Notes under the pieces: model-generated
Told to the model about the DNA's origin: nothing
Database searches by the model: none
The model's input: only the letters and a program-made list of their open reading frames with translations
Part shown: positions 1,955 through 16,197 of the stretch, piece by piece
Layout of the letters: each line of letters opens with the position of its first letter
How positions within the stretch are numbered: the stretch's first letter is position 1
Source of the DNA: a virus
Reading direction: 5' to 3' (one strand)
Length of the DNA stretch: 21,108 nucleotides
Virus record (IMG/VR): IMGVR_UViG_3300038701_002264
Span: 1-21,108 of that record
Position numbers and translations under genes: made by a program

Positions 1955-1987
1955 AAAAAAGCCCGCAAACCGTCAAAGTATGCGGGC
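1955..1987 (-). terminator. Rho-independent terminator ending the accessory operon
   Basis: On the minus strand a 7-bp perfect stem (GCCCGCA with TGCGGGC, 1961-1967 and 1981-1987) with a 13-base loop is followed by six T. It lies downstream of the 2015-2245 gene and directly before the portal ATG, so it should separate accessory-operon transcription from the head genes. Confidence 0.8.
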
Positions 1988-1988
1988 G

Positions 1989-2015
1989 ATTGTATCGCGT
2001 TGGCGCGGGTTTTGC
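1989..2015 (-). promoter_or_regulatory. Possible -10-like element for the portal/head operon
   Basis: On the minus strand a TACAAT hexamer (1989-1994) lies just upstream of the terminator; the best -35 at 17-base spacing is weak (TAGCAA). A start near 1982 would omit the 5' arm of the terminator and so escape it. The surrounding 11-mer GCGATACAATC recurs on the plus strand at 11454-11464. This is a tentative call. Confidence 0.25.
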
Positions 2016-2245
2016 TAGTTGGCTTGCTTCACCGGCACGCCCTCTGCGTCCCACTTTCGCAGAATCTCAGCAATGCAAATGTCGTCGCTCTTGTCTTGCA
2101 GTGATTCCAAAAGCTTGATTGCTGACCGGATACTCTCTTCTATCATCCTCAGGGTTTCCTCTGCTCCGCCAAAGCCACTTAGTTCTTTAATGCCATCATA
2201 TGAGGCCCCTAGATTTTTTATTGCACTCTCGATTTCAGTCTTCAT
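2015..2245 (-). CDS. Small hypothetical protein, acidic, helical
   Basis: This 76-residue protein is the last gene of the accessory operon and I do not recognise it. It starts MKTEIESAIKNLG and is rich in Glu, Asp, Ser, Ile and Leu with regular hydrophobic spacing (for example IRSAIKLLESL), suggesting a small helical, possibly dimeric protein. No signal peptide, membrane segment or metal motif is visible. Its translation start is well supported by a GGGAG..GAG purine stretch just before ATG 2245. That leader is nearly identical to the one of the neighbouring 2264-2458 gene (GGGAGYGAGATATGAA), suggesting shared ancestry of the initiation region though the proteins differ. The terminator at 1955-1987 follows. 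Confidence 0.6.
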   Translation of the reverse strand: MKTEIESAIKNLGASYDGIKELSGFGGAEETLRMIEESIRSAIKLLESLQDKSDDICIAEILRKWDAEGVPVKQAN

Positions 2246-2263
2246 ATCTCGCTCCCTTCATCT

Positions 2264-2458
2264 TCAAATAAAGTGATCCAGCACAGAATCCCTAAATCTA
2301 TCGTGAGCTTCTATTCTATCAACAAGCTCGATATCGGCACCGCCTTGAGATCGTCTTTCAATCCCTTCAACTTCGCTGAGATATATATTTACTGATCTAA
2401 TTAGGCTGGAGACAACCTCCAGATCTTGCAGTTTCAGCTCTACCTCTAATTTTTTCAT
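2264..2458 (-). CDS. Small hypothetical protein, helical
   Basis: This 64-residue protein begins MKKLEVELKLQDLEVV and I do not recognise its family. The alternation of charged and hydrophobic residues (LKLQDLEVVSSLIRSVNIYL) suggests one long amphipathic helix followed by a charged segment and a DHFI end. It lies 18 bases upstream of the next gene and is preceded by a GGGAGTGAG SD region and a tetraloop hairpin at 2475-2490. Short genes of this kind are common in phage accessory regions, where some act on host proteins, but nothing in the sequence says what this one does. Confidence 0.55.
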   Translation of the reverse strand: MKKLEVELKLQDLEVVSSLIRSVNIYLSEVEGIERRSQGGADIELVDRIEAHDRFRDSVLDHFI

Positions 2459-2474
2459 ATCTCACTCCCAGTAC

Positions 2475-2490
2475 GCGGTGTATTCACCGC
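2475..2490 (-). other. Intercistronic tetraloop hairpin
   Basis: A perfect 6-bp stem (GCGGTG/CACCGC) with a 4-base loop directly follows the stop of the metallophosphoesterase gene, and the SD of the 2264-2458 gene comes right after it. There is no T-run, so it is more likely an mRNA stability, processing or translation element than a terminator. Similar hairpins occur at 5209-5226, 5488-5503 and 9569-9582. Confidence 0.55.
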
Positions 2491-2491
2491 A

Positions 2492-3652
2492 TTAACGAAT
2501 CATTCCGATATTAACAGTATGACGCTCTACTTCGCCATACTCTGGATGCAAAACAATTGCTTTGCTGTCTTGTTTGGCACGATAGCCATTCCACGCTGCG
2601 TATGCGTCCTTTGCCGCCATGGTGCGGAAGGACTCGGCAGTGCAACCAGGGTATTCTACACGGCGGTCATGGTGTATGTGCCCAGTAAGCGCCCATCTAT
2701 GAGCCGTATTACCCCACATTTGCGGCTCATCGCATGCCATCACGCTCGGCATGTCTTTCATCTTTATAGTGTGTCCGTGATGAATGCCAAGCATGTTCTG
2801 CCCAAACTGGTGGTAGTGGACTGGCGTCGGGCTGTCCTCGATCTCTACGCGCGGCTCGTTTTCATAAATGTTGGCCAGGGCCACATTCAGGAACAACGCG
2901 CTCGTATCGTCGTGGTTGCCGGTTGCGTTGATGACTTTGACTTCACCATGGTGCGCCAAAGCCTGCGTTATCATCCGTCGCATGATTCGTACGCCAGTCT
3001 TTATCATCTTGGCGTAACGGCTGTCAACGTCCAGAGCATGACCTGATCGGGTAGTGACGCCCTCCATGTTGTCGTAGTGGAAGTAATCGCCCAAGTTTAC
3101 GATAAGCGCCCGATTGCAGCTTGGTGCGGCCTCGATTAGTCGGGCAAAACAGTCCGCGTAGGCCGCCTCGGCAATATCTAAATCCCAATCTTCTCCCGTC
3201 TCCTCGCCCCAAGAAAGCATCCCGATGTGCGGATCGCCCAGCGGGTATACCGCCAGCATGTCGGTTAGCTGCACTGCTTTGCTCTTAGAAGCCTTGACCG
3301 GCTTAACATCCTGGCACAGCACGTCGATTGCGTCGCGCATGAGTTCGTACTGGCGCTCACGATCAATGCTTGTCTTCACCCACTGTAGAGACGGCTTGCC
3401 GTCTTTGTACAGAGTGCTTGTGCCTTTAACGGCGTACCCGTCCGGTACGGCATGCTGCATGTCGTGCTCCGGCGACAGACCGCGCTTTGCCACGGCCGCG
3501 TTCAGCGCCTTGATTGATCGGGATAAGCTGGAATGGTTCTTCCCTAATGCTTCAGCGGCTTTGCGCATGCTGCCGTGTTCTTCTATTGCATTTATGTACG
3601 AAGTCTGAGCTGTAGTTGCTAGCTCTTTGTGCAAATCTGTAAAGTTATTCAT
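2492..3652 (-). CDS. HTH-metallophosphoesterase fusion protein
   Basis: This 386-residue protein combines an N-terminal helix-turn-helix (about residues 15-52: AIEEHGSMRKAAEALGKNHS, then SLSRSIKAL) with a calcineurin-like metallophosphoesterase domain (about 130-340). The phosphoesterase motifs are complete: GDPHIG (D140, H142), NLGDYFH (D189), GNHDD (N246, H247), HHGH (291-294) and GHIHHD (H325, H327). They would coordinate two metal ions to hydrolyse phosphodiesters in nucleic acid, nucleotides or a second messenger; the substrate cannot be read from sequence. Proteins of this build occur in phage genomes, and the HTH suggests DNA targeting. The start has a strong GGGGGAG SD and an ATGA overlap with the upstream 60-residue gene. 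Domain calls are firm; the biological role is inferred only. Confidence 0.85.
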   Translation of the reverse strand: MNNFTDLHKELATTAQTSYINAIEEHGSMRKAAEALGKNHSSLSRSIKALNAAVAKRGLSPEHDMQHAVPDGYAVKGTSTLYKDGKPSLQWVKTSIDRERQYELMRDAIDVLCQDVKPVKASKSKAVQLTDMLAVYPLGDPHIGMLSWGEETGEDWDLDIAEAAYADCFARLIEAAPSCNRALIVNLGDYFHYDNMEGVTTRSGHALDVDSRYAKMIKTGVRIMRRMITQALAHHGEVKVINATGNHDDTSALFLNVALANIYENEPRVEIEDSPTPVHYHQFGQNMLGIHHGHTIKMKDMPSVMACDEPQMWGNTAHRWALTGHIHHDRRVEYPGCTAESFRTMAAKDAYAAWNGYRAKQDSKAIVLHPEYGEVERHTVNIGMIR

Positions 3653-3831
3653 AACTCCCCCTTGGTCTTCTCATTATGCGTCTCCTTCGCCGATATGTTC
3701 TCAACAGTTCGCCAGTGGCATCCGTGGCGCTTAGCGATTGCCTTGGCTGTGTATTCTTTGAGCTGCTTTTGCAGCACTGTACGCTTCGCCAGGTCGGCTT
3801 TAATTCGTGCGACTGATTCTTTAGTTAGCAT
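3649..3831 (-). CDS. Small HTH-like protein upstream of the phosphoesterase
   Basis: This 60-residue, Lys-rich protein begins MLTKESVARIKADLAKRT. Its second half, KAIAKRHGCHWRTVENISAK, has the pattern of a resolvase or MarR-like helix-turn-helix (AIAKRHGCHWRTVENI). It is followed by a short charged tail. The start is supported by a GGAGG SD six bases before ATG 3831; it overlaps the Rmf-like gene by 11 bases and the phosphoesterase gene by ATGA. Proteins like this in phages are often annotated as hypothetical DNA-binding proteins. Translational coupling to an HTH-phosphoesterase suggests the two act together, but this is inference. Confidence 0.65.
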   Translation of the reverse strand: MLTKESVARIKADLAKRTVLQKQLKEYTAKAIAKRHGCHWRTVENISAKETHNEKTKGEL

Positions 3832-4141
3832 CTACAACCTCCAAAATGCTTGCTTTTGCGTAGTCTGTTGACTTGGCTGGTATGACTGCAAGGTGATCGC
3901 GCATATCCACAATGACATGCGTTTGCTTAGTCTCGCCTACCAAGAATTCAGCTTCTGCACGCGCATAGTCAATGCAAGTAAATGGCGTGCTTTCCATATC
4001 CACCTCATTCCAGCCCGCCAGCCATGCGCATCGGCGGCCCGTGTCGTTAATGGGATACGGGCAAGCGCTTTTGCTCAAACCGAGGCGGCGGGCATTTCTG
4101 CCCTCGCCGATCAGGCGATTTAGTTTCCGCTCGCTGATCAT
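3821..4141 (-). CDS. Rmf/CrpP-like domain protein with C-terminal extension
   Basis: This 106-residue protein starts at ATG 4141, chosen because it forms an ATGA overlap with the DUF3310 gene; an upstream extension to 4222 would lie wholly inside that gene. Residues 12-48 resemble ribosome modulation factor: a Gly/Arg/Ala helix (GEGRNARRLG), then CPY at 27-29, an Arg pair and WLAGW at 40-44, matching the G..A...G....CPY.....R..WL.GW signature of Rmf and the phage- or plasmid-borne CrpP group. Rmf binds 70S ribosomes and drives 100S dimer formation; some CrpP proteins were linked to ciprofloxacin resistance. Residues 55-106 are an extra domain (YARAEAEFLVGE, HVIVDMRDHLAVIPA) absent from Rmf. 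The ribosome target is inferred from the motif; the extension is unidentified. Confidence 0.75.
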   Translation of the reverse strand: MISERKLNRLIGEGRNARRLGLSKSACPYPINDTGRRCAWLAGWNEVDMESTPFTCIDYARAEAEFLVGETKQTHVIVDMRDHLAVIPAKSTDYAKASILEVVDAN

Positions 4142-4881
4142 TCGACTGACTCCAGCAAGCGCTTTAGGTACCACTCCGCTTTTTCTAGCGACTGCTTGCC
4201 TCCCTTGTGCCGGAAACGCCAAAGGTATTTCTGCACATTGCCTCGCAAGTACCCCTCGAATTCTTCTTTGCTCATGCTCGCTCTAATTGCGTCGATGCAC
4301 TCAATCTCGCCGCTGGCGTAGTGAGCTGGGCTGTTGACTTCGTCGTCGGGTAAATCGACTAACAAAAAATCACCAGATTCTACTCCATCCTTGATGAACT
4401 CCTCTTTCTCTGACTCGGATTTAAAGAAAGGCTGTTTCACTTTCTTTTCCAGCATCCCCGCAAAATGCAGCGCGCGGCGAGCTGCTGTGTATTGATCCTG
4501 GGGTACAAACAGATCAACACTGTCTTTTAAGCGCACAAGCTTGACGCCGTTCAATGTAATCTCAAAAGGATGATTCATCATTGCTGTTTCGCGCACGTCT
4601 TCCGTCAACTCACTAACAAACGGCGCACGCTCGCGGAGTTGGTCGAGGGTTAAGCATTCGATGCCTTGATCTGCGTAATAGCTCACGCTTTGAGTGTGAG
4701 TTTTCCCACCCCTTACAGCCCAACATGAGTATTCATCCCACTGGAAATCGTACCCCAAATAGCCTCCAATCCCCGGCAGGGCCTCGAACAGCTCAGCCCC
4801 ATGCGCTACTGCTCGCTCAATAATCTCTCTCGCTTCTTCTTCCGATTTTGGAACGCAGTAAAAATCTTCAATTGGTTTCAT
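4138..4881 (-). CDS. DUF3310 domain protein with long N-terminal region
   Basis: This 247-residue protein has a C-terminal DUF3310 domain (about 180-246), recognised from VNSPAHYASGEIECIDAI, then LRGNVQKYLWRFRHKGGKQS and EKAEWYLKRL. In phages the domain is usually annotated as unknown or as a nucleotide kinase by comparison with T7 gp1.7; no P-loop is visible here, so any kinase role would use a non-canonical site. The first ~170 residues are unusual for this family: an acidic helical start (SEEEAREIIERAVAHGAELF) and an aromatic stretch (YLGYDFQWDEYSCWAVRGG). They match nothing I know. Both gene ends are coupled by ATGA. A role in nucleotide metabolism is plausible but unproven. Confidence 0.75.
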   Translation of the reverse strand: MKPIEDFYCVPKSEEEAREIIERAVAHGAELFEALPGIGGYLGYDFQWDEYSCWAVRGGKTHTQSVSYYADQGIECLTLDQLRERAPFVSELTEDVRETAMMNHPFEITLNGVKLVRLKDSVDLFVPQDQYTAARRALHFAGMLEKKVKQPFFKSESEKEEFIKDGVESGDFLLVDLPDDEVNSPAHYASGEIECIDAIRASMSKEEFEGYLRGNVQKYLWRFRHKGGKQSLEKAEWYLKRLLESVE

Positions 4882-5150
4882 TGCTTGAACTCCTCGTTAA
4901 AAAACTTATCGGTTATCGCCTGACACCGGCGCGCATACTTACTGCGCATCGCCTGCAATTGCTTAGGCTCAACTTCACGATATACGCGATACCGTGTGCC
5001 GTCAACCGTAATTTCTACGCCTGTTGCTGCTGCGTTGTGGATTTTTGTTTCCCATGTATCTAAAGCATCCTGTTGCCCATGTTTCATGCCGTGTATGAAC
5101 ATGGACACAGGCAATGATAAAATACATAATAACAGTACTATGTTAAGCAT
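4878..5150 (-). CDS. Membrane-anchored small protein
   Basis: The ATG at 5150 is chosen because GGAGGG lies seven bases upstream; a TTG at 5171 would give seven more residues but swallow this SD. The 90-residue product opens with a single hydrophobic segment (MLNIVLLLCILSLPVSMFIH), suitable as an inner-membrane anchor. Next comes a short HGMKHGQQDALDTWETKIHN segment and a beta-type stretch (GVEITVDGTRYRVYREV), ending in a basic helical tail. With a non-cleaved anchor the remainder would be cytoplasmic or periplasmic depending on orientation. The end is joined by ATGA to the DUF3310 gene. I do not recognise the family; phage-encoded inner-membrane proteins of this size sometimes alter host entry or cell envelope. 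Confidence 0.65.
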   Translation of the reverse strand: MLNIVLLLCILSLPVSMFIHGMKHGQQDALDTWETKIHNAAATGVEITVDGTRYRVYREVEPKQLQAMRSKYARRCQAITDKFFNEEFKQ

Positions 5151-5244
5151 AAATAGCCCTCCAACACCCAATAAACGTCCCCGCGCACACTACGCGGCCC
5201 CGATATGTGGCGACCAACCGGTCGCCGTTGTGTTTAATCTTCAT
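5143..5244 (-). CDS. 33-residue small protein
   Basis: Minus-strand ATG 5244 opens a 33-codon frame ending in TAA at 5143, overlapping the next gene's start by eight bases. It fills an otherwise empty gap between two well-supported genes. A GAAGGG SD-like stretch lies three to eight bases upstream. The product starts MKIKHNGDRLVATYRGRVV and continues CAGTFIGCWRAIYA, with alternating hydrophobic and charged residues suggesting a beta-hairpin followed by a short helix, a pattern I associate with short conserved phage proteins. The frame also holds a perfect 7-bp stem at 5209-5226, so the DNA may work as RNA structure as well. Coding status is probable, not certain. Confidence 0.5.
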   Translation of the reverse strand: MKIKHNGDRLVATYRGRVVCAGTFIGCWRAIYA

Positions 5245-5253
5245 ACCACCCTT

Positions 5254-5475
5254 CTAATACCCACCACGGGTTTCGTTTAGATACTCTACCAGTTTTGCAT
5301 AGGCCAATGCACATACTAGCGCCCTGTCGCACCCATCCAAGCTAACAACATCCAAGTACTCTCCAGCATTTGAATGCTCCGAAATCCGAACCGTGTAGTC
5401 TGTCAGCCCGTGATAGCAGAACTCAATATTCAGCCTCGGGGTATTCTCCACTAAATCAAACAGCTTACCTTCCAT
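5254..5475 (-). CDS. Small hypothetical protein
   Basis: ATG 5475 is preceded at good spacing by AGGAGG (5480-5486); a GTG six codons upstream would place the SD inside the gene, so the shorter form is preferred. The 73-residue product begins MEGKLFDLVENTPRLNIEF and continues CYHGLTDYTVRISEHSNAGE, followed by YLDVVSLDGCDRALVCAL and AYAKLVEYLNETRGGY. This looks like a small alpha/beta fold with a C-terminal helix. I do not recognise it. It sits directly downstream of the GC-rich hairpin at 5488-5503. Confidence 0.6.
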   Translation of the reverse strand: MEGKLFDLVENTPRLNIEFCYHGLTDYTVRISEHSNAGEYLDVVSLDGCDRALVCALAYAKLVEYLNETRGGY

Positions 5476-5483
5476 AAATCCTC

Positions 5484-5519
5484 CTAAGGCCACCGCAGTG
5501 GCCGGTTGTTAATCTTCAT
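5484..5519 (-). CDS. Possible 11-residue leader peptide with hairpin
   Basis: An ATG at 5519, overlapping the TGA of the preceding gene (ATGA), opens MKINNRPLRWP and then stops in TAG just before the SD of the 5254-5475 gene. The frame contains a perfect 6-bp stem with a 4-base loop (GGCCAC/GTGGCC, 5488-5503). Ribosomes translating it could melt the hairpin and help initiation downstream. Its start matches the ATGAAGATTAA of the 33-residue gene at 5244, so it might instead be a remnant of such a gene. Low confidence. Confidence 0.25.
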   Translation of the reverse strand: MKINNRPLRWP

Positions 5520-5962
5520 ATCAGACCTTTTGATTTAAGGTACTTCCTCCGCCACTCTTGCGCGGCCTCCATTATTGAGTCTCCGGAAACTGATCCCAAG
5601 ATTAAAATTTCGTGACTTGTGATGCAGTTATTATATGAGTAAACAATCTCCTTATCACTTGTAATCGATGCGGGCTTTTCTTGCGCTGGCTTAGGAGCAC
5701 TAACAAAGACAAGCCATATGTTTTCTCCATCCTTTACCCCCATCCTCTCTCGCAACTTCTTGTTTTCTATGGCGCAGGCAAGCTCGGATGGGTATCCACC
5801 CTCAATCTCTGATATGTCCTCCGGATTAAGATCCATTTTATCTGCAAGCCATTCGATATTGTCCTCCAGCTGCTCAATGTCATCCCACTGAAGCGCGAAA
5901 TTTGGCCCGAGAAGCCAGTCTAGATTCACGATCCTGTCAACTCTTACATTTGGGTCTATCAT
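5516..5962 (-). CDS. Hypothetical acidic protein
   Basis: The start at ATG 5962 is chosen because GAGGG lies seven bases upstream (5970-5974). Longer starts at 5968, 5989 and 6010 lack suitable spacing, and the last two overlap the preceding gene. The 148-residue product begins MIDPNVRVDRIVNLDWLLG. It has an acidic helical region (DDIEQLEDNIEWLADKMDLN), a short LRERMGVKDGENIWLVFVSA strand-like part, a Pro/Ala linker (PKPAQEKPAS) and a C-terminal domain ending EAAQEWRRKYLKSKGLI. I do not recognise the family. The two-part layout, with a linker near residue 95, suggests two domains; no catalytic motif is visible. Confidence 0.6.
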   Translation of the reverse strand: MIDPNVRVDRIVNLDWLLGPNFALQWDDIEQLEDNIEWLADKMDLNPEDISEIEGGYPSELACAIENKKLRERMGVKDGENIWLVFVSAPKPAQEKPASITSDKEIVYSYNNCITSHEILILGSVSGDSIMEAAQEWRRKYLKSKGLI

Positions 5963-5978
5963 TGTCATACCCTCTTTT

Positions 5979-6356
5979 TTAGTCTTCATCCAACAAACAC
6001 CCGCGGTCAACGCCGCGAGCGAGCCAGCTGATCACCTGTTGATAATGATGCTTAAGGCGATGACTAATCTCTTGAACGTCGCCGCGTCCGTTCTCGATTG
6101 CCATGATCAGCTCCCCCGCCGCTATCCGCTCCTGCTTCATGTGATCATGCAAAATAGCCCACTCGCTTTCGTCGTGAGTGTCGAAAAACGCTGACATTAC
6201 CTCGGCGATGTCGCCGTCGTCGTCGTATGCCAAGATTGCGTATTCTTCGCAAGCGTCTGCGTGCGCCTGCTCTGAGCGCTCTTGCTCGTCGTAACGCTCC
6301 TGCGCTTCCTGCCCATCCCTGGCGGCTGCTAACTCGTGTTGTTCGTATGCGCTCAT
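5979..6356 (-). CDS. Hypothetical Glu/Ala-rich helical protein
   Basis: ATG 6356 has an AGGAGG SD and an ATGA overlap with the upstream gene; the longer reading from 6401 would overlap that gene by 49 bases. The 125-residue product begins MSAYEQHELAAARDGQEAQE and is dominated by Glu, Gln, Ala and Asp, likely a helical bundle or coiled coil (ERYDEQERSEQAHADACEEY). It then runs through an acidic DDDGDIAEV and ends LARGVDRGCLLDED. Very acidic phage proteins are sometimes DNA mimics or inhibitors of host enzymes, but nothing here proves it. No known family is recognised. Confidence 0.6.
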   Translation of the reverse strand: MSAYEQHELAAARDGQEAQERYDEQERSEQAHADACEEYAILAYDDDGDIAEVMSAFFDTHDESEWAILHDHMKQERIAAGELIMAIENGRGDVQEISHRLKHHYQQVISWLARGVDRGCLLDED

Positions 6357-6604
6357 TGCGAATCCTCCTGCACCAATCCGATAATGTCCTGCCACACCCA
6401 ATCCGCTTCTCGGTATGACATGTGTTCTAGCATCTTTTCCGCAATCTCTTCAGTAATTTCTACCGGCACAACCACGCACTCCTCAGGGATGGCGTAAAGG
6501 TCACGGGTTTCGTATCCGTTGCGCTCCATATGCTCGCGCGAGTAGTCGCTTCCGATCTTCCATTCCCCGCTTGCAGACTTATATTGCCACGCTACTGGTT
6601 CCAT
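6353..6604 (-). CDS. Conserved-type small phage protein (MEPVAW family)
   Basis: This 83-residue protein begins MEPVAWQYKSASGEWKIGS and continues to TRDLYAIPEE. The MEPVAW...LYAIPE pattern is a recurring N-terminal module in small phage proteins of enterobacterial and related phages, sometimes linked to larger Ea22/Ead-type proteins. The second half (VEITEEIAEKMLEHMSYREA) is helical and acidic. The start has AAGGAGAG upstream. It overlaps its two neighbours, by 13 bases and by ATGA, so the genes are tightly coupled. Its function is unknown; the motif recognition is from memory and could be checked by profile search. Confidence 0.6.
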   Translation of the reverse strand: MEPVAWQYKSASGEWKIGSDYSREHMERNGYETRDLYAIPEECVVVPVEITEEIAEKMLEHMSYREADWVWQDIIGLVQEDSQ

Positions 6605-6834
6605 AGCCCACTCTCCTTTTCTGATTTCAGCCTCTCTATTTCATCTGACAGCGCTCGAAAGCGTATCGAATCGAGCTTCATTGATTCGTGAAGCTCTTCC
6701 AAGAATTCCTCAAGTTTTCTGGTGCTAATTGTTTTTTGTCTATGACAGACGAACAGTAGTCTTTCAAGGTCAGAACCTTTCGCCAATTCGCTAGCTCTCA
6801 AAATCGTGTTTTTTCGGTTGTAGAATCTGTACAT
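6592..6834 (-). CDS. Small basic hypothetical protein
   Basis: This 80-residue protein begins MYRFYNRKNTILRASELAK and has a Lys/Arg-rich N-terminal half followed by an acidic heptad-like helix (ISTRKLEEFLEELHESMKLD, then LSDEIERLKSEKES), suggesting a small coiled coil. A GGGAGAG SD precedes ATG 6834. It overlaps the upstream gene's 3' end by 37 bases in another frame, a large but not unusual overlap for phage. I do not recognise the family. Confidence 0.5.
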   Translation of the reverse strand: MYRFYNRKNTILRASELAKGSDLERLLFVCHRQKTISTRKLEEFLEELHESMKLDSIRFRALSDEIERLKSEKESGLWNQ

Positions 6835-7241
6835 TTTTCACTCTCCCACTTAACAAATAATTCCCGCAGATCTTCTGAAATTTCTTTTAGTGCTGCTGAC
6901 CGTGCTGCTGTCAACTCTCTCTGTGCAATCTCGCCGCAAATAAACTTGCGCTTAGCCTCGATTGCTAGGCGCGGGCGCTTGTCGCCTGGGAACTTACTAT
7001 CAAATCGATGCAGGCATTTTTCAGCCCAGTCACAGCCAAGCAGGCCAATATCGTCCTGCTGCGATTTGCTTAGCTTGCCCCAAGCTTCCGCCAGATACCA
7101 CCAAACATCATCCCGCCCACTTCTATCGAATGCCTCTGACAACTTCACTTCTTTGTCGCCGTGAGCCAAATAAAAATCCGCAAAGCCGTCGCGGCAAGCC
7201 TCAAGCTCAATCAGTTCGTGAATATCCAATGTTGTTTTCAT
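6798..7241 (-). CDS. Putative Imm5-like / conserved phage protein
   Basis: This 147-residue protein begins MKTTLDIHELIELEACRDGF. It carries ACRDGFADFYLAHGDKEV and WWYLAEAWGKLSKSQQDDIG, followed by a segment with Asp/Arg-Pro-Arg and an Ile-Glu-Ala helix (FPGDKRPRLAIEAKRKFI). That last pattern resembles the PddpRPr.AIEaar element of a phage and immunity-protein group often annotated putative immunity protein (Imm5-like). I know it only as a pattern. The remainder is helical and charged. It starts at ATG 7241 with GGAGAG upstream, coupled by ATGA to the small gene at 7238-7390. The role is uncertain; the resemblance does not prove an immunity function. Confidence 0.55.
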   Translation of the reverse strand: MKTTLDIHELIELEACRDGFADFYLAHGDKEVKLSEAFDRSGRDDVWWYLAEAWGKLSKSQQDDIGLLGCDWAEKCLHRFDSKFPGDKRPRLAIEAKRKFICGEIAQRELTAARSAALKEISEDLRELFVKWESEKCTDSTTEKTRF

Positions 7242-7390
7242 TGCTCGCTCTCCGTCCTCAGCTTGGCTGCATACTTGATTAACTTCTCTCGCTTGTCGGC
7301 TGGCACCCAGATAATTGCCTGAGTGTAGCCTTTTGCCTGCATATCTGCGCGCAGCTTGTCTGCGCCATTGGTTGTATTGGCTTCGCTCAT
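7238..7390 (-). CDS. 50-residue protein, MazE/RHH-like pattern, first gene of the accessory operon
   Basis: ATG 7390 opens a 50-codon frame that ends in an ATGA overlap with the next gene. Product: MSEANTTNGADKLRADMQAK, then GYTQAIIWVPADKREKLIKY, then AAKLRTESEQ. The core LRADMQAKGYTQAIIWVPAD resembles the LRA.GlrpvqiWVPD signature of DUF3018/MazE-type antitoxins and related ribbon-helix-helix proteins: a beta strand followed by two helices. An ACGGAG SD lies at fitting distance. It is the first gene after the promoter with an overlapping inverted repeat (7414-7431), so it could be the repressor of its own operon; that is inference. No toxin partner is evident next door. Confidence 0.65.
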   Translation of the reverse strand: MSEANTTNGADKLRADMQAKGYTQAIIWVPADKREKLIKYAAKLRTESEQ

Positions 7391-7413
7391 GCGCGCTCCG
7401 TTTGATTATCTTA

Positions 7414-7448
7414 TGTGCTCAAGATAGCACAATGATTGCGGTCGTCAA
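7414..7448 (-). promoter_or_regulatory. Sigma70 promoter with overlapping operator-like dyad
   Basis: On the minus strand TTGACG (7443-7448), a 16-base spacer and TATCTT (7421-7426) make a good sigma70 promoter. A 6-bp inverted repeat TGTGCT/AGCACA (7414-7419 and 7426-7431, spacer 6) overlaps the -10 and the likely start site, the usual place of a repressor site. It would start the accessory operon at gene 7238-7390. Confidence 0.75.
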
Positions 7449-7462
7449 CACATTTTGCAGAT

Positions 7463-7487
7463 AAAAAAAACCCCGCACGAAGCGGGG
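7463..7487 (-). terminator. Rho-independent terminator after terL
   Basis: On the minus strand a 6-bp GC stem (CCCCGC/GCGGGG, 7471-7476 and 7482-7487) with a 5-base loop is followed by eight T. It closes the packaging operon just before the accessory-operon promoter. Confidence 0.9.
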
Positions 7488-7542
7488 CAAGGAGGGAGGA
7501 GCAAGCAATGATCAATGGAGAGGTTGCAGACTAACCCATGCA

Positions 7543-8934
7543 CTAAAATAGTGCAATACTTATCGCGTCATCGACTCGCGCAAACGCCATGACGAACGCG
7601 TCCGCCAAGTCTGGCGACGGGACGCCACGCTTTGACAGGTCGGCTTTGCTCTCGACCTTGACACGCCCGTTTCCATCGTAGTCCTTTTGGGGTAGTGACA
7701 ACTCTGCTTTCAGTCGCTCCAACTCGTCAATATCGCTGCTTATGCTTATTAACTGATCAGGCTCGTACCGTGTGCCGTTCGTGATCGCGTCATACGTGTT
7801 CCGGAATCTGTCCGCCAGCAGCCACCATGCCTGCGCCTTTGCGTTGGCAAACATTTCTTTGTGCTTGACGCCAGGCTGGTAGTCTCGGTCGGCATCAATA
7901 AGGTCACGACTGCCCGCATTGAACTTGACGTAACTCACAGGCATGTAGCCTTGGTCTCTGCTGCGCGCTGTGTTGATCTCATCGAACTTGGCACCAGCCG
8001 AAGCGCCAACGCCAATGCTGTCATAGATGATCTTGCTGCGCGTTTGCAGCGCTGTGTTGTACGCGCGCGTGCATGACTGAAGTAATTCGTCCGGTTGCGC
8101 TTTCCATGATTCCAAAGCCACCGCAACAGAACCAACGGCTCCAACAGTCACGCAACGGTCACCGCCACTGTCGGCAATGTCAAACCCAATCCTGGCCGGG
8201 CCATTAGCATCAAACCCAAGCGCTTTATGTGCATCGACTGCCGCCGCAATCCACCGCGGGTTGATAACCGCCTTGCTTGCGTCTGAGATTGGCTCGCCGC
8301 CGTACACATGAGCGAACAGGTCAGGATCAGCCTTGCGCATCAGCTCCATGTCGTCACGAAGCTCTTGCGGGAACCAAGGATTGTCATCCCAGTTTATCTT
8401 CTTGACGATGCAGTAGCGCTTTCCGTCCATGTAGTCTGGATACTGCCGATTAATAACAAAGCGTTGGTGTGTGTCGTCCAAGATGTGTTCGGGGTTATAA
8501 CTAACCCAGATCTCGCTACCGTCTTTCCGCAGCGTTGGAATCAGGAACTTCCATGACTCTTTTGTCACCTGAGCGGCTTCTTCCACCCAAGCCGCGTCGA
8601 AGCCGGAATAGCCTTTGATCTTTTGCTGGTTGCGGTGAAGGCCCTCGAACTTAATAACACCGCCCGACTTCGACCTTATCTCAGTCTTGAGTATGTCAAA
8701 CCATTGATGGAGGTCGCGACGGTTGATCTCATCGACAAACTCTTGATAAACAGAGTCGTCGAGGGATTTCATGATTTCGCGGAAGCAAACAACGCGCCAG
8801 CCGAACGACATGACGTTGTTGATCAGGATGGTTACGAATGTCCTGGTCTTAGCCGAGCCGCGCCCGCCGTAGGCGACCTTAAAGCGGGCGGGTTGGAGGT
8901 ATTCACGAAAGGCATGAGCGATGGCGCATTCCAT
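7543..8934 (-). CDS. terL: Terminase large subunit (Terminase_3 / PBSX type)
   Basis: The 463-residue motor and nuclease pumps DNA into the prohead through the portal and cuts the concatemer. The ATPase domain has Walker A GGRGSAKT (23-30), an FREIMKSLDDS segment typical of the PBSX group, and Walker B-like AAWVEEAAQ (E118/E119). The RNase H-like nuclease domain starts at GFDIADSGGDR (D251), with DSIGVGA in the middle and SPDLADAFVMAF near the C terminus. Length and motif order fit the Terminase_3 family. ATG 8934 overlaps the TerS stop (TGATG); a GTG one codon upstream is possible. A 6-bp inverted repeat (7540-7554) spans the stop. Unusually, portal is not next: an accessory unit of about 5.4 kb intervenes. 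Confidence 0.95.
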   Translation of the reverse strand: MECAIAHAFREYLQPARFKVAYGGRGSAKTRTFVTILINNVMSFGWRVVCFREIMKSLDDSVYQEFVDEINRRDLHQWFDILKTEIRSKSGGVIKFEGLHRNQQKIKGYSGFDAAWVEEAAQVTKESWKFLIPTLRKDGSEIWVSYNPEHILDDTHQRFVINRQYPDYMDGKRYCIVKKINWDDNPWFPQELRDDMELMRKADPDLFAHVYGGEPISDASKAVINPRWIAAAVDAHKALGFDANGPARIGFDIADSGGDRCVTVGAVGSVAVALESWKAQPDELLQSCTRAYNTALQTRSKIIYDSIGVGASAGAKFDEINTARSRDQGYMPVSYVKFNAGSRDLIDADRDYQPGVKHKEMFANAKAQAWWLLADRFRNTYDAITNGTRYEPDQLISISSDIDELERLKAELSLPQKDYDGNGRVKVESKADLSKRGVPSPDLADAFVMAFARVDDAISIALF

Positions 8935-9592: not shown

Positions 9593-10276
9593 TTACTTGG
9601 TGATAAATCCTTGGTAGTATAGGACTTCTAGCGCTTGACCTACCGCCAACTCTGCCTCTTCCGCTGCCATCGCTATCGAATCTGGCGAAAAGCTTCGGTA
9701 GGAGAGCCTAGAAACAATATCGAAAAAATCTAACTGGCTGACTAGTATTACGCGCCCGATAACAGTTTCGAAGCGCGAAGTCCCGCCATCTTCTTTCAAC
9801 AGAAAATCTGACTCGCCACCATTCTCAATGACCCAGTCTTGCAGCTCTTTAGCTTGATATGCTGCTGCTTCTGCGACTCCCATGGAGTAATACTTGCCCA
9901 AAACAGGCTTGATCATTAAATCGTATAGTATGTCTTTTGATTTGCTGACAGCGCCTCTGTCAACTTCGACCTTTTCTGCGCTCGGCTCTCCTGTTGGCTC
10001 TAACCCCTCGCAGAAACCAACTATTGCGTCAAAATCAGCACCAACAAACCACTCTCTAGACCTAGCTTCAAATCTACTAGAGCAAAATGCCAATAGTTCG
10101 TTTTCTTGGTCTTTGACTTTGTGTCCCATTGGAAAGACCTTGCTCTGCTTTATTTCGCAGTCAGACGCTATCCTTGCTGTCGCAAGGTGCGCTCTTAGCC
10201 GGGATTCTGGATTTAAAGAGCGGCCAACCTTTGTTAGGCCGTTTGTAAACTCAACTGCGTAGATATATTCGCTCAT
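9593..10276 (-). CDS. T5orf172 / GIY-YIG-like nuclease-domain protein
   Basis: This 227-residue protein has an N-terminal T5orf172 (GIY-YIG-related, Mug113-like) domain: YIYAVEFTNGLTKVGRS (about 4-20), NPESRLRAHL (22-31) and FEARSREWFVG (69-79), placing the YIY, VGR, Arg and Glu elements of the fold in order. After a Pro/Ser linker comes an unrelated helical region (KDILYDLMIKPVLGKYYSMG, later SIAMAAEEAELAVGQALEVL) that I do not recognise. T5orf172 proteins are small nucleases or nuclease relatives common in phage, some in mobile contexts. It lies next to the packaging genes. SD is weak (TGGTGA). Whether it cuts DNA, and whether it is a homing nuclease, is open. Confidence 0.75.
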   Translation of the reverse strand: MSEYIYAVEFTNGLTKVGRSLNPESRLRAHLATARIASDCEIKQSKVFPMGHKVKDQENELLAFCSSRFEARSREWFVGADFDAIVGFCEGLEPTGEPSAEKVEVDRGAVSKSKDILYDLMIKPVLGKYYSMGVAEAAAYQAKELQDWVIENGGESDFLLKEDGGTSRFETVIGRVILVSQLDFFDIVSRLSYRSFSPDSIAMAAEEAELAVGQALEVLYYQGFITK

Positions 10277-16151: not shown

Positions 16152-16197
16152 TAGTTGACGTGGCAATTATGAGTTGGCATACTGAAAAAGTCAACTA
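16152..16197. promoter_or_regulatory. Overlapping divergent promoters with operator dyad
   Basis: Rightward: TTGACG (16155-16160), 17-base spacer, CATACT (16178-16183). Leftward: TTGACT (16189-16194), 17-base spacer, CATAAT (16166-16171). Both are bracketed by a perfect 8-bp inverted repeat TAGTTGAC/GTCAACTA (16152-16159 and 16190-16197), with an extra AGTTGGC half-site between. The two -35 boxes lie in the repeat arms, so one regulator bound there would control both directions. Confidence 0.8.

Follow-up and report, generated by a model that had tools for sequence, protein, structure and literature searches.

Small repressors and antitoxins provide the closest described counterparts of the locus analysed here. 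Repression protein F of the plasmid RSF1010, UrfF being the annotated name of this protein on an RSF1010-type plasmid, is described as autoregulating promoter P4 of the E-F-repA-repC operon (PMC2200642). P4 carries an inverted repeat, GTACTCA-N14-TGAGTAC, around its -10, together with the palindrome TGAGTACTCA, and palindromes also occur upstream of two other UrfF loci. A similar placement is found among toxin–antitoxin systems, for which a single source reports, in its passages on these two operators, that the site bound by Mtb MazE6 covers 18 bp on the -10 and that the operator of E. coli mazEF is palindromic at the -10 (PMC9477884). Three members of the MazE-like antitoxin family PF11455 (formerly DUF3018) adjoin PemK/MazF toxins, two of them as entered in table rows of PMC6354349 and PMC4914505.

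The window, that is, the whole stretch of DNA analysed, corresponds to the complete IMG/VR record IMGVR_UViG_3300038701_002264 (21,108 bp), which is probably a fragment of a tailed phage. Its genes include those for the portal, the large and small terminase subunits, a Prim-Pol, a helicase and an SSB, and no tRNA gene was found in its 21,108 bp. Among named relatives, two Vibrio phages come closest, at 78% identity in the terminase large subunit (TerL), while bacterial-genome matches to the window TerL are distant (35–43% identity, five loci). In the two Vibrio phages the portal directly follows TerL, and in another related locus (L003) TerL is followed by a frame equal in length to that found after TerL in both of them. 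The TerL–portal interval of the window (about 1955–7542) extends over about 5.6 kb and is filled mostly by small genes; that of L002, a sibling with a TerL 95% identical to that of the window, measures about 3.1 kb. A gene with a ribosome modulation factor domain lies at 3821–4222 on the minus strand (PF04957 RMF, 31.6 bits against a cut-off of 27.9); during infection it could have a bearing on the hibernation of host ribosomes. A GIY-YIG/T5orf172-like gene recognized below the cut-off (9593–10276, minus strand) lies upstream of that for the small terminase subunit and is possibly a homing or mobile element, and a stem-like sequence, TTGCACTATTTTAGTGCA, runs across the TerL stop codon at 7539–7556 and is identical in L002. 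The features around the gene under study are as follows.

5979–6356, minus strand: next gene after the accessory block, listed as 140 aa from a TTG, with an ATG at 6356
6353–6604, minus strand: block gene of 83 aa without a significant family match
6369–7397, minus strand: accessory block of 1,029 bp with genes of 50, 147, 80 and 83 aa, absent from L002
6592–6834, minus strand: block gene of 80 aa without a significant family match
6798–7241, minus strand: 147-aa gene, Imm-5 like (PF21805, 31.2 bits against a cut-off of 25), start in an ATGA overlap
7238–7390, minus strand: 50-aa gene for a probable remote MazE-like/UrfF-like protein (open reading frame, coding score, weak family matches)
7407–7426, unstranded: second, interlocking dyad TATCTT-N8-AAGATA, broken in L002
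7414–7431, unstranded: exact dyad TGTGCT-N6-AGCACA over the -10, the left arm (minus-strand sense) reading as an extended -10
7421–7448, minus strand: predicted promoter TTGACG-16 nt-TATCTT with a TG extended -10 (consensus match)
7470–7488, minus strand: predicted intrinsic terminator after TerL (consensus match), conserved in L002
7543–8937, minus strand: TerL, upstream of the cassette

The very short, easily missed gene proposed in the first-pass annotation is real. Scored with codon usage trained on 14 genes of the window, its frame reaches 0.415 bits per codon, a value attained by none of 745 off-frame segments and by 2.7% of 149 true coding segments, while the five remaining frames of this segment (7390–7238) range from -0.33 to 0.03 bits per codon. 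A GGAG ribosome site precedes the ATG by 5 nt, and the stop codon overlaps the ATG of the 147-aa gene in an ATGA (7241–7238). The 50-aa gene is also the first gene behind the predicted TerL terminator and extended -10 promoter, both of which are assigned from consensus matches. A scan of 1.5 kb returned two promoter-like sites (1.3 expected) and three terminator-like sites (1.7 expected), so that by count alone neither prediction is significant.

Comparison with L002 delimits the block in which the gene resides. Homology between the two phages covers TerL, the terminator and the promoter, stops eight bases short of the 50-aa gene's ATG and restarts 12 bases ahead of the ATG (6356) that opens the first gene past the block; both junctions thus sit just before a start codon, and the 83-aa gene runs a few bases past the block edge. 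The homologue of that next gene (85% identical over 129 residues) is, in L002, the first gene behind the same promoter, which is retained as TTGAAG/TAATAT. At E ≤ 0.01, the 14,133-bp L002 record (L104), itself a fragment, matches none of the 50-, 147-, 80- and 83-aa genes, and a dedicated search of this fragment with the 50-aa protein was empty. Since L002 is without the 1,029-bp block but has the terminator and promoter, the 50-aa gene is optional cargo and, as seen in this one sibling, the promoter persists without it. The frame is therefore not conserved in this one close relative, through absence of the whole block and not through decay of the frame. For the 83-aa gene no viral relative was found, and for the 147-aa gene a single one was (L105:5001–5588), in which both ends are kept and the middle is expanded by SARSAAWSA-type repeats.

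At the level of the protein, three libraries gave matches that fall on an overlapping core of the 50 residues: Pfam PF11455 (MazE-like; 16 bits against a cut-off of 22, E = 0.012, positions 5–39 of 65), PHROGs phrog_11804 (15.4 bits) and NCBIfam UrfF (NF041430; 15.1 bits, the equivalog cut-off being 100, E = 0.018). By these curated cut-offs the protein is a member of neither PF11455 nor UrfF, and library scores of this size can arise by chance, since the unrelated NCBIfam family TseB scores close to UrfF (14.0 bits, E = 0.029, residues 21–43). Controls were applied through HMM and pairwise shuffle tests, which were picked after the library matches had been seen. An HMM built from four UrfF proteins gives the 50-aa protein 10.7 bits, a score reached by four of 2000 shuffles, the best of 413 other frames of the window scoring 4.6; with one MazE-family protein added to the four, the score rises to 17.9 bits and is reached by 0 of 2000 shuffles. 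In pairwise alignment, RSF1010 F shares 11 of 29 residues, ungapped, and two of 2000 shuffles align with F as well as the 50-aa protein does, while none of 2000 equals its Smith–Waterman match to a MazE-family protein whose gene adjoins a PemK/MazF gene (L225); for three other UrfF proteins, 29, 192 and 197 of 2000 shuffles do as well. The two families are themselves linked, because RSF1010 F weakly matches PF11455 (17.9 bits, below the cut-off) and phrog_11804, and the MazE-family protein reaches 15.8 bits with the UrfF HMM; two other UrfF proteins scanned matched no Pfam family at E ≤ 1. We therefore take the 50-aa protein to be, probably, distantly related to a MazE-like/UrfF group, with the MazE-like core as the nearest part.

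Close relatives of this protein were not recovered. Candidate stretches in viral_contigs (16) and in genome_contigs (492) gave no confirmed relative, and none was found in phages, in plasmids or in the records of L002, L003 and the two Vibrio phages. Over 50 of 82 TerL-related loci phrog_11804 had no match and PF11455 had two below the cut-off, the better in L085 and the other in a 252-aa frame of L086; the L085 match was set aside by eye as unrelated sequence. Core-motif scans of viral_contigs returned 0 and six matches, and none of the six frames resembled the 50-aa protein by eye. Matches of up to 29 bits in tblastn, located on the same strand just past the TerL segment and sharing a common WLPHDA motif, were taken as TerL coding, and tblastn of RSF1010 F and of the L225 MazE-family protein in phages gave no match. 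Among the matches listed in a literature search on MazE-like antitoxins, UrfF, IncQ F repressors and phage orphan antitoxins, no phage UrfF-like or toxin-free PF11455 protein appeared.

A single-sequence AlphaFold model of the 50-aa protein (mean pLDDT 78.9, pTM 0.37) places helices at residues 7–19 and 31–49 and forms no strand in the monomer, the strand-like stretch 22–30 being assigned from alignment only. Instead of the strand and two helices (beta-alphaA-alphaB) of a ribbon-helix-helix (RHH) protein, the model has a single helix after the strand stretch, and a helix-strand-helix order with nothing past the last helix would not be canonical RHH. A PDB sequence search returned only the TseB relative YpmB (E = 0.25), and a fold search of the PDB with the model gave three matches, the best at E = 7.4, none of them meaningful. 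Of the MazE/RHH-like core originally proposed, the MazE resemblance stands as real, if remote and below the cut-off (16 against 22 bits), while a strict RHH assignment is not supported, given the one helix after the strand.

Set against the systems described above, the 50-aa protein and RSF1010 F are both tiny and have in common an M-A-K-G...Q...W core, and both are encoded in operons whose promoters carry inverted repeats spanning the -10; the layout of P4 resembles that of the window dyad. On the other hand, F is longer (68 against 50 aa), is encoded by the second gene of its operon, is plasmid-borne and has a basic strand stretch (RQRKFWL), while the counterpart in the 50-aa protein, TQAIIWV, contains no basic residue. 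With PF11455 the shared core is M-A-G...WVP-D, but the match stops at position 39 of 65, the last 26 positions being absent, whereas the L225 member scores 93.9 bits over positions 2–65; unlike the three family members that adjoin PemK/MazF toxins, the 50-aa gene does not. Antitoxins of the Mtb MazE6 type are similar in having a strand-like stretch followed by a helix and a target (a proposed one, for the 50-aa protein) centred on the -10, and differ in their RHH fold from the predicted helix-strand-helix with its one helix after the strand stretch.

Our best single guess, still a tentative one, is that the 50-aa protein represses its own operon. An accessory (cargo) operon situated between the terminase and portal genes would be transcribed from an extended -10 promoter of its own, with the terminator setting it apart from TerL; at its head, the 50-aa gene would encode a minimal helix-strand-helix protein, kin to UrfF and, in their N-terminal part, to MazE-like antitoxins. 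We infer that this protein dimerizes through its strand and that the dimer binds promoter DNA near the -10 of its own gene, where it would damp transcription of the cargo, much as the RSF1010 repAC operon is damped by F. Autorepression, as first suggested, is plausible because the MazE resemblance extends to the autorepressor F, and it is preferred because the layout of the window is of the P4/MazE6/mazEF type; the part of the suggestion that made the dyad the target is unsupported. Several observations argue against autorepression: family matches below cut-offs, with TseB scoring nearly the same and three UrfF proteins aligning hardly above shuffles; a dyad at chance level, conserved no better than the stretch preceding it, over a promoter that L002 keeps without the gene; the non-basic strand stretch; the absence of a second exact site in the window; and the upstream region of the L225 MazE-family gene, in which no such repeat was seen.

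The reading that survives best beside autorepression, and one that we regard as a serious possibility, is that a good extended -10 promoter happens to contain a chance dyad and that the 50-aa cargo protein acts elsewhere, for example on a host factor, its DNA binding having been lost or never present. The dyad TGTGCT-N6-AGCACA does overlap the -10, as the first-pass annotation stated, and is exact and the sole exact copy in the window; it is nevertheless not unusual by chance. The whole window holds 80 perfect dyads with 6-bp arms (spacer 0–12) against a mean of 78 in 20 shuffles, and 11 sites matching this dyad with up to three mismatches against 12.3 expected. Within 7391–7469 (79 bp) there are two interlocking dyads, at least one being found in 30% of shuffles and at least two in 11%, and the three dyads of the 152-bp intergenic stretch, terminator stem included, are reached by 5% of shuffles.

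Promoters with a TGTGC-type extended -10, a known promoter element, allowed the two arms to be considered separately. The control pattern TTGACA-N11-TGTGCTATNAT, in which the right arm is not required, matched at least 83 viral sites, of which 73 distinct ones were analysed; it needs TTGACA and TATNAT, and the promoter of the window itself (TTGACG, TATCTT) does not fit it. Among these 73 promoters listed, AGCACA at the symmetric position matches a mean of 1.93 of six bases, with 29 of 32 other offsets lower and three higher (up to 2.22). Three of the 73 listed have five or six matching right-arm bases, a count equalled at six other offsets, and column shuffles of the 73 give a mean of 0.96 such sites and reach three in 6.5% of trials; no enrichment of the right arm over other offsets was therefore found among the comparable viral promoters listed. 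Seventeen promoters besides that of the L002 record (18 stretches) were discarded as support for the dyad, because the pattern used to find them already required CACA in the right arm. The 147-aa homologue in L105 is preceded by TTGACA and TGTGC-TAATAT, and the right arm is absent there. In L002, 11 of the 12 arm bases are kept with one arm pair broken, and identity to the window is 14/18 in the dyad and 115/130 in the stretch before it, all of this with the gene absent.

With dyads at chance level and an unenriched right arm, an extended -10 element is the best reading of TGTGC; AGCACA is not a general feature of such promoters, a minority of which may be regulated. The proposal that the dyad is the operator of the 50-aa protein is consequently unsupported, since its left arm reads as an extended -10, its right arm is unenriched and, in L002, the promoter and a slightly broken dyad persist in the absence of the gene. 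These results, together with the non-basic strand stretch, favour a chance dyad and a protein acting elsewhere, whereas the position of the gene at the head of the operon, directly behind the promoter, and its remote relationship to a proven autorepressor speak for autorepression.

A further suggestion, that the protein is an antitoxin without its toxin, would make it a product that binds and neutralizes a host PemK/MazF-type toxin during infection, as a counter-defence. This is improbable in our judgement and less likely than autorepression of the cargo operon. It gains from the PF11455 similarity, from the match to the L225 protein that no shuffle equalled and from the lack of a toxin in the window, in which the PF02452 profile of PemK/MazF found nothing at E ≤ 10, whereas it matched in four of 14 control genomes. 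The C-terminal tail of MazE-type antitoxins usually holds the toxin. In the 50-aa protein this tail is missing along with everything after PF11455 position 39, and PADLOC gives no match; no toxin was found in the window, but the stretch expected of an antitoxin is lacking too. The 147-aa Imm-5-like neighbour was discarded as a toxin partner: its model, all-helical and poor (pLDDT 55.5), does not allow a fold search, and no 50-aa-like frame lies directly upstream of its homologue in L105.

That the dyad is instead the operator of another phage regulator controlling the cargo operon here and in L002, such as the 68-aa Cro/C1-type HTH protein at 16166–15960, is very unlikely: this HTH_3 protein is present in the window, and the promoter region and most of the dyad are common to the window and L002, but the window has one exact site, its inexact sites are no more numerous than expected and the dyad is less conserved than the stretch before it.

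A practical lesson follows from the promoter controls, in that an operator-like dyad overlapping an extended -10 needs such a control before it is named an operator. The comparison with L002 reveals a phage gene block that is present or absent precisely behind a fixed promoter. A larger proposal, which we hold to be rather unlikely, is that a toxin-free 50-residue repressor with the core shared by MazE-like proteins and RSF1010 F heads an exchangeable phage cargo block and limits its expression wherever the block lands, as a 'repressor-first' cassette that joins a resident promoter at the ribosome-binding site. The sequence evidence, weak but controlled, links a phage micro-protein with plasmid repressors of the RSF1010 F type and with MazE-like antitoxins, and the helix-strand-helix core of this group may occur on its own as a toxin-free regulator.
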